This document shows positions 15,752-22,535 of a stretch of DNA of 64,000 nucleotides, one piece after another; position 1 is the first letter of the stretch, and each line of letters starts with the position of its first letter. The notes under the pieces are model-generated. The model ran no database searches. It had not been told where the DNA came from and was given only the letters and a program-made list of their open reading frames with translations. A program made the translations under genes and the position numbers. The stretch is from Halogeometricum sp. S1BR25-6 (GTDB taxonomy: Archaea; Halobacteriota; Halobacteria; Halobacteriales; Haloferacaceae). The stretch lies in NCBI RefSeq assembly GCF_031624495.1, contig NZ_JAMQOP010000001.1:558001-622000 (forward strand), written 5' to 3'.

Positions 15752-15817
15752 CGCTCGGCGATGAAACGCCTCGCTCGGGGACTGAAATCAGCAGAACGCC
15801 GGGACAGGGATTTGAAC
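15752..15817. repeat. Direct-repeat copy of tRNA-Ser 3' end plus flank (copy 1)
   Basis: Repeats 16020-16085 at an offset of 268 bp with three differences. It carries the last 21 nt of the tRNA-Ser gene plus about 45 bp of downstream flank. The T-arm part (15806-15815) pairs with an inverted copy at 15848-15857. A perfect 7-bp hairpin GCACCGC-TTC-GCGGTGC sits between them (15824-15840). Confidence 0.8.
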
Positions 15818-15929
15818 TCACTCGCACCGCTTCGCGGTGCTCGCTGCTCAAATCCCTTCCTAGTCGTTTCGACGCTCACGGTGGTGAGCACACGCTACGC
15901 GGTGCTCGTCGGGTAGTTCGCGTCAGAAA

Positions 15930-15989
15930 CGCCGGGCAGGGATTTGAACTGCGGTCGCTCGCTGCGCTCGCTCCCTGATTCAAATCCCT
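15930..15989. repeat. Second tRNA-Ser 3'-end fragment with inverted partner
   Basis: CGCCGGGCAGGGATTTGAAC at 15930-15949 is the tRNA-Ser 3' end with one base missing. Its T-arm (15938-15948) is matched by an inverted 11-bp copy at 15979-15989, and CTCGCTGCGCTCG (15958-15970) lies between them. Offset from the intact tRNA is 135 bp. Confidence 0.8.
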
Positions 15990-16064
15990 TCGTAACCGTT
16001 CACGGATTCCAGTCGCGTACGCTCGACGATAAAACGCCTCGTTCGGGGACTGAAATCAGCAGAA

Positions 16065-16145
16065 CGCCGGGACAGGGATTTGAACCCTGGATCCCAAAGG
16101 GAACACGCTTTCCAGGCGTGCGCCTTACCACTCGGCCATCCCGGC
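16065..16145 (-). tRNA. tRNA-Ser(GGA)
   Basis: 81-nt cloverleaf with acceptor stem GCCGGGA/TCCCGGC, discriminator G, anticodon GGA in loop CTGGAAA, a long class II variable arm (TTCCCTTTGGGATC region) and T-arm CAGGGTTCAAATCCCTG. CCA is not encoded. Two fragments of its own 3' end lie downstream (15797 and 15930), the subject of a finding. Confidence 0.93.
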
Positions 16146-20229: not shown

Positions 20230-21180
20230 ATGGACGATTCACCGGACGACGAGACGGTTCGACAGGCCATCGAACACTCCCGGCGCGGCGCGCCCGCCGT
20301 CGGCGGCGTCGTCAGAGACCAGTTCGAGACCCACGAAGTGTTCCAGCGAATCGTCGCCGCCGCGGACGAGGAGGCGACGACGGGCGTCCGGGAGCTGTTC
20401 TTCAGCGCCCTCGCCGCGGGGTTCGCCATCACCGTGACCTACCTCTTGTACGCGTCGATGACGGCGGCGACCGGCGGCGACCCGGTGTTGAGCGCGCTCC
20501 TCTACCCGCTCGGGTTCGTGTTCATCATCATCGGGGGGTACCAACTGTACACCGAGAACACGCTCCCGCCGGTCGTCCTCGTTTTGGAGCGACTGGCGAG
20601 CGTCCCCCGACTGCTCGCCATCTGGTCCGTCGTCATCCTCGGCAACTTCGTCGGCGGCGGCCTCGGAGCGCTCATCCTCGCCCGGACCGGCGTGCTCTCG
20701 ACCGACGCCGCGGCCGCGGCCGCCTCCCTCGCGACGAAGGGCGTCGAGACGCCGTTCTGGGACCTCTTCTACAAGGCGGCGTTCGCCGGCCTCATCGTCG
20801 CGGGCGTCGTCTGGTTGGTGTACGCCGTCAACGACAGCACCACGCGCTTTCTCGTCGTCTACGTCGCGTTTCTCGCGATACCGTTCGGCAACCTCTATCA
20901 CTCCGTCGTCTCGTTCACGGAACTGACCTACCTCGCCCTCGTCGGGCAGGTGGCGTTCCTGCCCGGTCTGGTCGGGTTCGTTCTCCCCGTCCTCCTGGGG
21001 AACACCCTCGGCGGCGTCGTCCTCGTCACCGTCGTCAACTACTTCCAGACGACCGAAGAGCGCCTCGACATCGCCCGCAGGGACGGCGCGGAACGGAAGC
21101 TATCGACGAGAGAGTGGCTCTTCGGACGCGGAAACGGTCGGTCGTACGTCCCGGTTCAGAACGAGGGCGAGGACGAGTAA
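20230..21180 (+). CDS. Formate/nitrite transporter (FNT) family protein
   Basis: 316 residues with six hydrophobic segments between about 55 and 270. The two pseudo-symmetric FNT signatures appear as GNFVGGGLG and LGNTLGGVV. A 55-residue polar N-terminus and a charged C-terminal tail flank the pore. It resembles the YfdC branch of the family more than FocA or NirC; the transported anion is not certain. It converges on citrate synthase. Confidence 0.88.
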   Translation: MDDSPDDETVRQAIEHSRRGAPAVGGVVRDQFETHEVFQRIVAAADEEATTGVRELFFSALAAGFAITVTYLLYASMTAATGGDPVLSALLYPLGFVFIIIGGYQLYTENTLPPVVLVLERLASVPRLLAIWSVVILGNFVGGGLGALILARTGVLSTDAAAAAASLATKGVETPFWDLFYKAAFAGLIVAGVVWLVYAVNDSTTRFLVVYVAFLAIPFGNLYHSVVSFTELTYLALVGQVAFLPGLVGFVLPVLLGNTLGGVVLVTVVNYFQTTEERLDIARRDGAERKLSTREWLFGRGNGRSYVPVQNEGEDE

Positions 21181-21195
21181 CGCGACGAACGGCCC

Positions 21196-21269
21196 TTACC
21201 GCTCGTCGACGGGCGCGAACGTGCGGTCCTCGTCGCCGACGTAGCGGGCGCGCGGGCGGATGAGGCGGT
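21196..21269 (-). repeat. Extra copy of the last 74 bp of citrate synthase
   Basis: Direct repeat of 21396-21469 at exactly 200 bp offset, 72 of 74 identical. It contains the last 23 codons and a stop codon; both differences are synonymous in the citrate synthase frame. It lies downstream of the intact gene and is not part of any larger gene that I can see. Confidence 0.9.
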
Positions 21270-21279
21270 CGACCTGTAC

Positions 21280-21315
21280 CTTTTTGCCGCGCTCGCTCCG
21301 CTCGCTGGCAAAAAG
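21280..21315. terminator. Strong hairpin behind citrate synthase
   Basis: Perfect 9-bp arms CTTTTTGCC / GGCAAAAAG around a core with CTCGCTCCGCTCG (21292-21304). It could end the citrate synthase transcript, since read on the minus strand the arms give T5 runs. The same core occurs behind several tRNAs in this window. Confidence 0.6.
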
Positions 21316-21395
21316 CTACGCCAAAAAGCCTCCTCCCTCCCGGTGGTCGGTCGTCGGCCCGCTCCCGCCTTCGGCGCTCGCGGTCCTAGGGCCGG

Positions 21396-22535
21396 TTATC
21401 GCTCGTCGACGGGCGCAAACGTGCGGTCCTCGTCGCCGACGTAGCGGGCGCGCGGGCGGATGAGGCGGTTGTCCTCGTACTGCTCGATGACGTGGGCGAC
21501 CCACCCGCCGACGCGGGACATCGCGAAGATGGGCGTGTAGATGTCGACGGGGATGCCCATCTGGTAGTACGTCGACGCCGAGTAGAAATCGACGTTCGGC
21601 GCGAGGCCTTTCTCTTCGCCGATGTACTCCTCGATGGCGACCGAGTAGTCGTACCACTTCATGTCGCCCGCGGCCTCGCCGAGTTCCTCGCTTTTCTCGC
21701 CGAGGATGACGGCGCGCGGGTCCTTCACGTTGTAGACGCGGTGGCCGAACCCGGGGACGCGGCGGCCGCCTTCGAGGGCGTCCTGCACCCACTTCTTGGG
21801 GTCTTTATCGCTGTCGTCTATCTCCTTGAGCATGCTCATCACGTTGGCGTTCGCGCCGCCGTGCAGCGACCCCGCGAGCGTCCCGACGGCCGAAGTGACC
21901 GCGCTGTGCATGTCCGACAGCGTCGACGCGGTGACCATCGCCGAGAACGTCGAGGCGTTCAGCCCGTGGTCGGCGTGCAGGACGAGGGCCATATCGAACG
22001 TGTCCGCGAGCACCTCGTCGGGTTCCTCGCCGTTGAGCATGTAGAGGAAGTTCGCGGCGTGTCCGAGGTCCTGCCGGGGGCTCACCACGTCCTCGCCGTT
22101 TCGCAGGCGGTTGAACGCCGCCAGCGCGGTCGGTATCTTCGCCGTGATGCGCCGGCCCTTCCGGACGTTCGCTTCGAGGTCCGTCACGTCCTCGTGGTCG
22201 GCGTCCTCGTCGTACGCCGACAGCGACGAGACGACGGTGCGGAGCGCCGCCATCGGCACCTCGTCGGCCTCGGCGAGTTCTCGAATCTCCGCCAGCACGC
22301 CGTCGTCGAGTTCGCGCTCCTTCGACATCTTCTCGGAGAACTCGTCCAGTTCCTCGCGCGTCGGGAGTTCCCCATGCCAGAGGAGGTAGACGACTTCCTC
22401 GTACGACGCGTCGGGCGCGAGGTCCTCGATGGCGTACCCGCGATACACCAACTCTCCGGCGTCCCCGTCGATGTGGCTCAGTTCCGACTCAGCAACGAGA
22501 ACGCCTTCGAGACCCCGCTTTAACTCGTCTGACAT
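21396..22535 (-). CDS. Citrate synthase
   Basis: Condenses acetyl-CoA and oxaloacetate at the entry of the TCA cycle. 379 residues, the length of archaeal/short type II-like enzymes. Conserved active-site regions include ALVLHADHGLNASTF, GSLHGGANA and VPGFGHRVY, with the final catalytic Asp in NVDFYSAS. The last codons are duplicated 200 bp downstream with a different stop context (see repeat). The promoter region upstream (22536-22799) is shared with the divergent PhoU/TrkA-C gene. Confidence 0.97.
   Translation of the reverse strand: MSDELKRGLEGVLVAESELSHIDGDAGELVYRGYAIEDLAPDASYEEVVYLLWHGELPTREELDEFSEKMSKERELDDGVLAEIRELAEADEVPMAALRTVVSSLSAYDEDADHEDVTDLEANVRKGRRITAKIPTALAAFNRLRNGEDVVSPRQDLGHAANFLYMLNGEEPDEVLADTFDMALVLHADHGLNASTFSAMVTASTLSDMHSAVTSAVGTLAGSLHGGANANVMSMLKEIDDSDKDPKKWVQDALEGGRRVPGFGHRVYNVKDPRAVILGEKSEELGEAAGDMKWYDYSVAIEEYIGEEKGLAPNVDFYSASTYYQMGIPVDIYTPIFAMSRVGGWVAHVIEQYEDNRLIRPRARYVGDEDRTFAPVDER

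Follow-up and report, generated by a model that had tools for sequence, protein, structure and literature searches.

A hairpin-bounded duplication of the citrate synthase 3' end in a haloarchaeal chromosome, a likely mobile gene-end cassette spread by homologous recombination

The duplicated 3' end of the citrate synthase gene

The window, a stretch of 64,000 nucleotides that forms part of contig C1 of Halogeometricum sp. S1BR25-6 (G000), a haloarchaeal chromosome, carries a citrate synthase gene (CS) whose last codons occur a second time behind it. Read in the direction of the gene, the CS 3' end and its TAA are followed by a 126-bp spacer with no gene inside and then by a 74-nt copy with its own TAA, and the stop of a convergent gene lies 15 nt beyond this copy. 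The locus is made up of the following features.

21396..22535, minus strand: citrate synthase gene (CS, 379 aa), host of the insertion; an ORF present in 59 of 60 related genomes
21396..21469, minus strand: X, the in-gene 3' end (last 23 codons and TAA), which probably arrived with the unit; 97% identical to X'
21321..21395, minus strand: T, a GC-rich stretch (GCGAGCGCCGAAGGCGGGAGC...) closing with GGCTTTTTGG, terminator-like by its sequence
21270..21320, minus strand: H, a second hairpin, GTAGCTTTTTGCC...GGCAAAAAGGTAC, with a tail ACAGGTCGA reaching the X' junction (inverted repeat, fold)
21196..21269, minus strand: X', the displaced native CS 3' end, now outside the gene; the match to the sister species G004 lies directly behind it
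20230..21180, plus strand: convergent neighbour gene (316 aa; ORF), whose 3' end marks the undisturbed downstream flank; G004 has the same neighbour directly after CS

The direct repeat (21196-21269 and 21396-21469) covers 74 nt at 97% identity with an offset of 200, and can be extended to 80 nt at 95% identity; a match of this kind, 200 bp away, excludes chance. As CS lies on the minus strand, the copy at 21196-21269 is downstream of its stop. The copies differ at two codons, TTT/TTC and CGA/CGG, both synonymous, and TAA closes each of them, which agrees with an earlier sequence-only reading of the window that described the last 23 codons and stop of CS as repeated at a 200-bp offset with synonymous differences alone. 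The strong hairpin that the same reading placed in the 126-bp spacer was likewise recovered: a 13-nt inverted repeat (21276-21288 and 21307-21319, 92% complementary) folds into a stable hairpin, and the frame of H in the window is that of a dispersed family, TTTTTGGTCCAGCTTTTTGC...GCAAAAAGGTGG. A comparison with Rfam returned tRNA and one sub-threshold hit only.

The empty site that had been anticipated in related genomes was found in G004, whose CS, like that of G001, is 97% identical to the CS of the window and has no second copy. The 120 nt behind X' match the DNA directly behind the G004 CS stop at 90% (159 bits), whereas the DNA behind the in-gene X reaches only 23 bits against the same post-stop DNA. 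Therefore, about 200 bp comprising X, T and H appear to have been added, in frame after CS codon N356, leaving X' at the native position and CS ending in X. The same polarity was observed in ten carriers compared with an uninserted congener (G000, G008, G035, G284, G178, G170, G115, G249, G188 and G336), with more than 50 bits for the DNA after X' and at most 23 for the DNA after X; four carriers (G123, G195, G229 and G288) show the opposite tendency, the DNA after the in-gene X matching some congener better. As to which copy matches relatives, a comparison that had also been suggested from the sequence, X carries TTT and CGA while X', together with G004 and G001, carries TTC and CGG. We infer that the in-gene copy of the window is the newcomer and the copy at 21196 the displaced native end, with only two sites bearing on which of the copies is foreign.

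Recurrence at citrate synthase and behind other genes

A gene 3' end had at first been regarded as an unusual target; the locus proved instead to be one member of a recurring family. Of 392 genomes sampled from the order, 20 have a second CS C-terminus on the same strand, 170-285 bp downstream, as does G022, which came from an earlier sample. These carriers span 11 genera and five families, and include Haloarcula vallismortis, Halosimplex aquaticum, Halorhabdus salina, Halomicroarcula sp. SYNS111 and Halarchaeum rubridurum. The counts are lower bounds, since the census (a 31-aa C-terminal query over the 392 genomes, followed by a listing of genomes with multiple matches) misses very short or decayed copies. 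Three CS-end copies are present in G336, and in G154 a third, decayed copy lies at the far end of the array. X' starts in nearly all CS carriers at the codon after a conserved Asn, that is, between N and RLIRP, and 45 nt later in Halarchaeum; the shared junction codon could reflect a site preference instead of shared descent. Homology between X and X' mostly stops at the stop codon regardless of the length of X, and continues past it in G035, G154, G249 and Halarchaeum. Within most congeneric carrier groups, the CS hairpins are 91-97% identical and the 4-fold sites of CS 72-88% identical.

As a separate observation, 806-816 bp lie between the CS ends of G220 and G286 (L080 and L081) and hold two ORFs, one for a Fic/Doc-like toxin by motif reading and the other small; the pair may be a toxin-antitoxin cargo carried at this gene end.

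When the chromosome of G000 was scanned for local repeats (1.26 Mb, taken as stretches), the high-scoring repeats that were recognised as duplicated gene ends flanking a hairpin included a single 3' end of a protein gene, that of CS, the rest being tRNA 3' ends. The hairpin itself is dispersed well beyond CS. With the CS hairpin of G309 as query, each of five genomes of the Haloarcula family gave 10-17 matches, which stop at the last base of H, and 13 distinct loci outside CS carry, starting 0-10 nt behind H, a duplicate of the 3' end of the gene upstream. Displaced ends are known behind at least ten genes besides CS, with NCBIfam names that include gatB, a rad3-like helicase, TYW1, thiolase, pheT, gyrA, purM and a PINA-type ATPase. 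A duplication accompanies 18 of 28 H loci (13 non-CS and five CS); among control positions taken from these loci the figure was 9 of 1800, and among random positions of G000 10 of 2000. The duplications are 32-125+ nt long with their right edge at the stop codon, and no breakpoint lies farther than about 10-20 nt from the H hairpin. At the purM-like locus, X and X' are orthologous alleles, 81% identical. Where H comes without a duplication, it mostly adjoins the 3' terminus of a convergent gene or of a tRNA, not random sites.

The family is also present in the genus of the window, at 6-13 matches per genome; one exact hairpin pattern gave no match in G000, and a search with relaxed arms recovered the family. 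At L344-L372, also in this genus, H-type hairpins lie directly against the stops of convergent genes or the 3' ends of tRNAs and end in AAAAAGGTGG plus 0-6 nt, an arrangement that suggests a standard bidirectional terminator.

Movement between species and the proposed route of spread

At most CS loci only 0-3 synonymous differences separate X from X', and the case for a foreign origin of X therefore rests on gatB, on L208, L220 and L230, and on G229. Uninserted gatB genes in the genus of Haloarcula end in ..REELES, ..EELEG, ..EELDG or ..EELAE. In G115 the in-gene end reads ..QEELN before the stop, and the displaced end reads ..REELES before its stop and runs on into native downstream DNA; at least six uninserted congeners have the ..EELES form of X' as their native end. 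Compared in this way, the supplied in-gene end of gatB is demonstrably foreign and the old end native. A unit with the EELN end stands in G249 in front of an older unit, which G252 carries alone, and by this order the newest unit is the one next to the gene. Over the last 12 coding nt, the stop, T and H, the gatB units of G115 and G249 are identical at 109 of 112 positions, while the 4-fold identity of the two genes is 65%, and 47% in codons 375-450 of the alignment; G252, the closest to G249 in the compared table (gatB 4-fold 0.83), is without the EELN unit. This near identity of the unit, set against 65% at 4-fold sites and its absence from the closer G252, shows recent movement of the gatB unit between species. 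The left part of X in the gatB unit resembles the host and its right end is shared, a mosaic as expected for a crossover within X, and independent units occupy four gatB positions.

Decay can be seen at the same gene. In G343 (L235), gatB has the EELN end, T-H is deleted, and the scar left behind continues into the terminal part of the older copy, a structure read as a decay product of the unit.

We consider it likely that the window's locus is a mobile "gene-3'-end cassette" spread by homologous recombination, by which the native CS end was displaced. The unit would consist of X, the 3' coding end of an orthologous CS with its stop, of the terminator-like T, and of H, a hairpin flanked by T5 and A5 and ending in AAAAAGGTnnnGG. 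An existing locus with the order gene-X-T-H-X' would pass to orthologs by ordinary homologous recombination of transferred DNA, with gene/X as the left arm and X' as the right arm of a double crossover, an addition made feasible by the homology of the recipient's single 3' end to the DNA on either side of T-H. Recombination or gene conversion between X and X' would equalise the copies or delete the unit cleanly. Homologous recombination is the best-supported route of spread, and it is from the comparison of sequences that we infer transfer of units between species. In this regard, haloarchaea are polyploid, and intermolecular gene conversion is reported to be efficient in Haloferax volcanii (PMC8223754, PMC11276520). 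As for the first capture of a gene end by H, a homology-anchored, one-sided illegitimate event at the H end would be favoured, because the breakpoint always falls within about 10-20 nt of the hairpin; this constant junction argues against purely random illegitimate recombination, and the variety of targets against a single att site.

Sequence and fold place a hairpin and T tracts behind the stop, as in a transcription terminator. Since T5 tracts are efficient terminators in Haloferax (PMC7237163), T-H probably terminates on both strands, and as a bidirectional terminator it would probably keep the unit harmless or useful. Strong selection as a terminator could also explain part of the conservation of H.

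An alternative that we regard as unlikely is that a trans-acting tyrosine recombinase inserts a mini-element with its own 3'-end copy at an att site in CS. Such integration would account for the common junction codon of nearly all CS carriers and for the partial 3'-end copies with hairpins behind five of the 17 tRNA genes found in the 1.26 Mb of G000; archaeal elements restore gene 3' ends likewise (PMC6563490), and at gatB of G115 and G249 the target is restored by an element-borne 3' end. However, the unit carries no integrase and the integrases of G000 lie elsewhere. No CS att came to light in phages, plasmids or viral contigs, the matches listed from these collections including no CS-end fragment outside intact CS-family genes, and among the contig-end and partial matches from G117, G263, G167, G111, G242 and G283, those that were read contained no large integrase-bearing element at CS. 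The junctions, moreover, fall at four positions in gatB and at another position in the CS of Halarchaeum, and the target genes have no common core: CS by itself would suggest a constant att core shared by element and target, which is lacking at gatB and between genes. The sequence-only reading had pictured a short element that brings its own functional C-terminus, as some integrative elements do. In essence this holds, given the in-frame end with its stop and the foreign end supplied at gatB; a classical integrative element does not fit the absence of an integrase, of a CS att and of a common core, or the varying junctions.

Local tandem duplication of the gene end, with a hairpin arising or captured at the junction and no transfer between species, would explain why copies are near-identical within genomes and why the repeat passes the stop in the four carriers named above. 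Against it stand the gatB loci, where the in-gene end is foreign and common to two species while X' is native, as well as the dispersal of the H family and the fact that, however long X is, homology mostly halts precisely at the stop codon. Tandem duplication is thus contradicted at gatB and very improbable as a general account, although for single loci it could hold. Relatives with the same arrangement and diverged copies, which had been named as a sign of old tandem duplication without mobility, do occur; they do not carry that meaning, because empty sites and foreign in-gene ends occur alongside them.

Least probable of all is that H is a MITE- or REP-like transposon that makes very long target-site duplications: it is indeed short, multicopy and hairpin-ended with defined ends, but the 32-125+ nt duplications ending at the stop are not a short target-site duplication of fixed length, X and X' are orthologous alleles at gatB and the purM-like locus, and the copies without duplication abut gene 3' ends. 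A diversity-generating retroelement was considered and dropped, the differences between X and X' having no adenine bias and no reverse transcriptase being seen.

Relation to known systems and tRNA-end arrays

The recombination reading favoured here resembles the displacement arrays of T6SS effector-immunity genes and Rhs "orphan" 3' ends, in which displacement proceeds via homology-facilitated illegitimate recombination (HFIR; PMC5361080). In both, a new 3' module joins the conserved upstream part of a gene and the old end is pushed downstream, and the array grows with the newest module beside the gene (here G249 against G252, and the decayed distal copy of G154). A homologous upstream anchor with the old 3' end displaced downstream, as in HFIR, was found here as well. 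In contrast to those arrays, the genes concerned are housekeeping genes with unchanged protein function, and the module, about 100-200 bp in length, includes a terminator and is bounded by a defined hairpin. This hairpin is always the site of the illegitimate junction, which in HFIR has no fixed end.

Integrative elements at the 3' ends of tRNA and protein genes, such as thaumarchaeal iMGEs (PMC6563490) and those of archaeal tyrosine recombinases (PMC8371274), likewise restore the gene end with sequence that they carry, which has another stop codon, and leave the original end downstream. Unlike them, the units described here have no integrase, usually no cargo and no common att core, their junctions vary, and they occupy many genes per genome. 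With small dispersed palindromic repeats (REP, MITE, PATE), H has in common that it is short, multicopy, hairpin-forming and intergenic; it differs in its link to a duplicated 3' end of the adjacent gene and in the absence of a short target-site duplication. Neisserial DNA uptake sequences (PMC2397512) also form hairpins behind genes, possibly as terminators, and may spread with flanking DNA by homologous recombination; H, however, has no known uptake role, and the neisserial sequences are not known to displace gene ends. In our literature searches, mostly outside subscription journals, a hairpin-ended, cargo-free unit at housekeeping genes was nowhere described.

More tentatively, these loci may represent a new class of mobile unit in haloarchaea, in which a hairpin captures the 3' end of a housekeeping gene with its terminator and moves as a target-homologous cassette without a recombinase of its own, replacing the ends of protein genes, and perhaps of tRNA genes, genome-wide; we hold this to be possible, with the balance somewhat against it. 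If true, the 3' ends and terminators of haloarchaeal core genes would be exchanged as modules, and trees based on gene 3' ends would be mosaic. Downstream "gene fragments" would then be native ends that had been displaced, not the remains of pseudogenes, and the terminator hairpin would at the same time serve as a carrier in horizontal transfer. Such a unit would also offer a testable case of a selfish or useful non-coding element that rides on homologous recombination without an enzyme of its own.

Some further features of G000 concern its tRNA genes. Two tyrosine-recombinase genes (627894 and 637324) lie downstream of tRNA-Met(cat), at 627389-637803 of C1 (L111), with no second tRNA-Met end beside them within 18 kb. 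Arrays of tRNA 3' ends were observed on the same contig at 876628-877128 (L123), 937046-937276 (L126), 1599548-1599671 (L139) and 1346962-1347366 (L181); they follow tRNA-Met (four copies), tRNA-Ser(cga) and two tRNA-Arg genes. In the window itself, at 15752-16145, tRNA-Ser(gga) is followed by two further partial copies of its 3' end, with a 66-bp direct repeat at an offset of 268. The hairpins there, AGGGATTTGAA...GTTCAAATCCCT, have as left arm an inverted copy of the T-arm, and their layout is the same as at citrate synthase.
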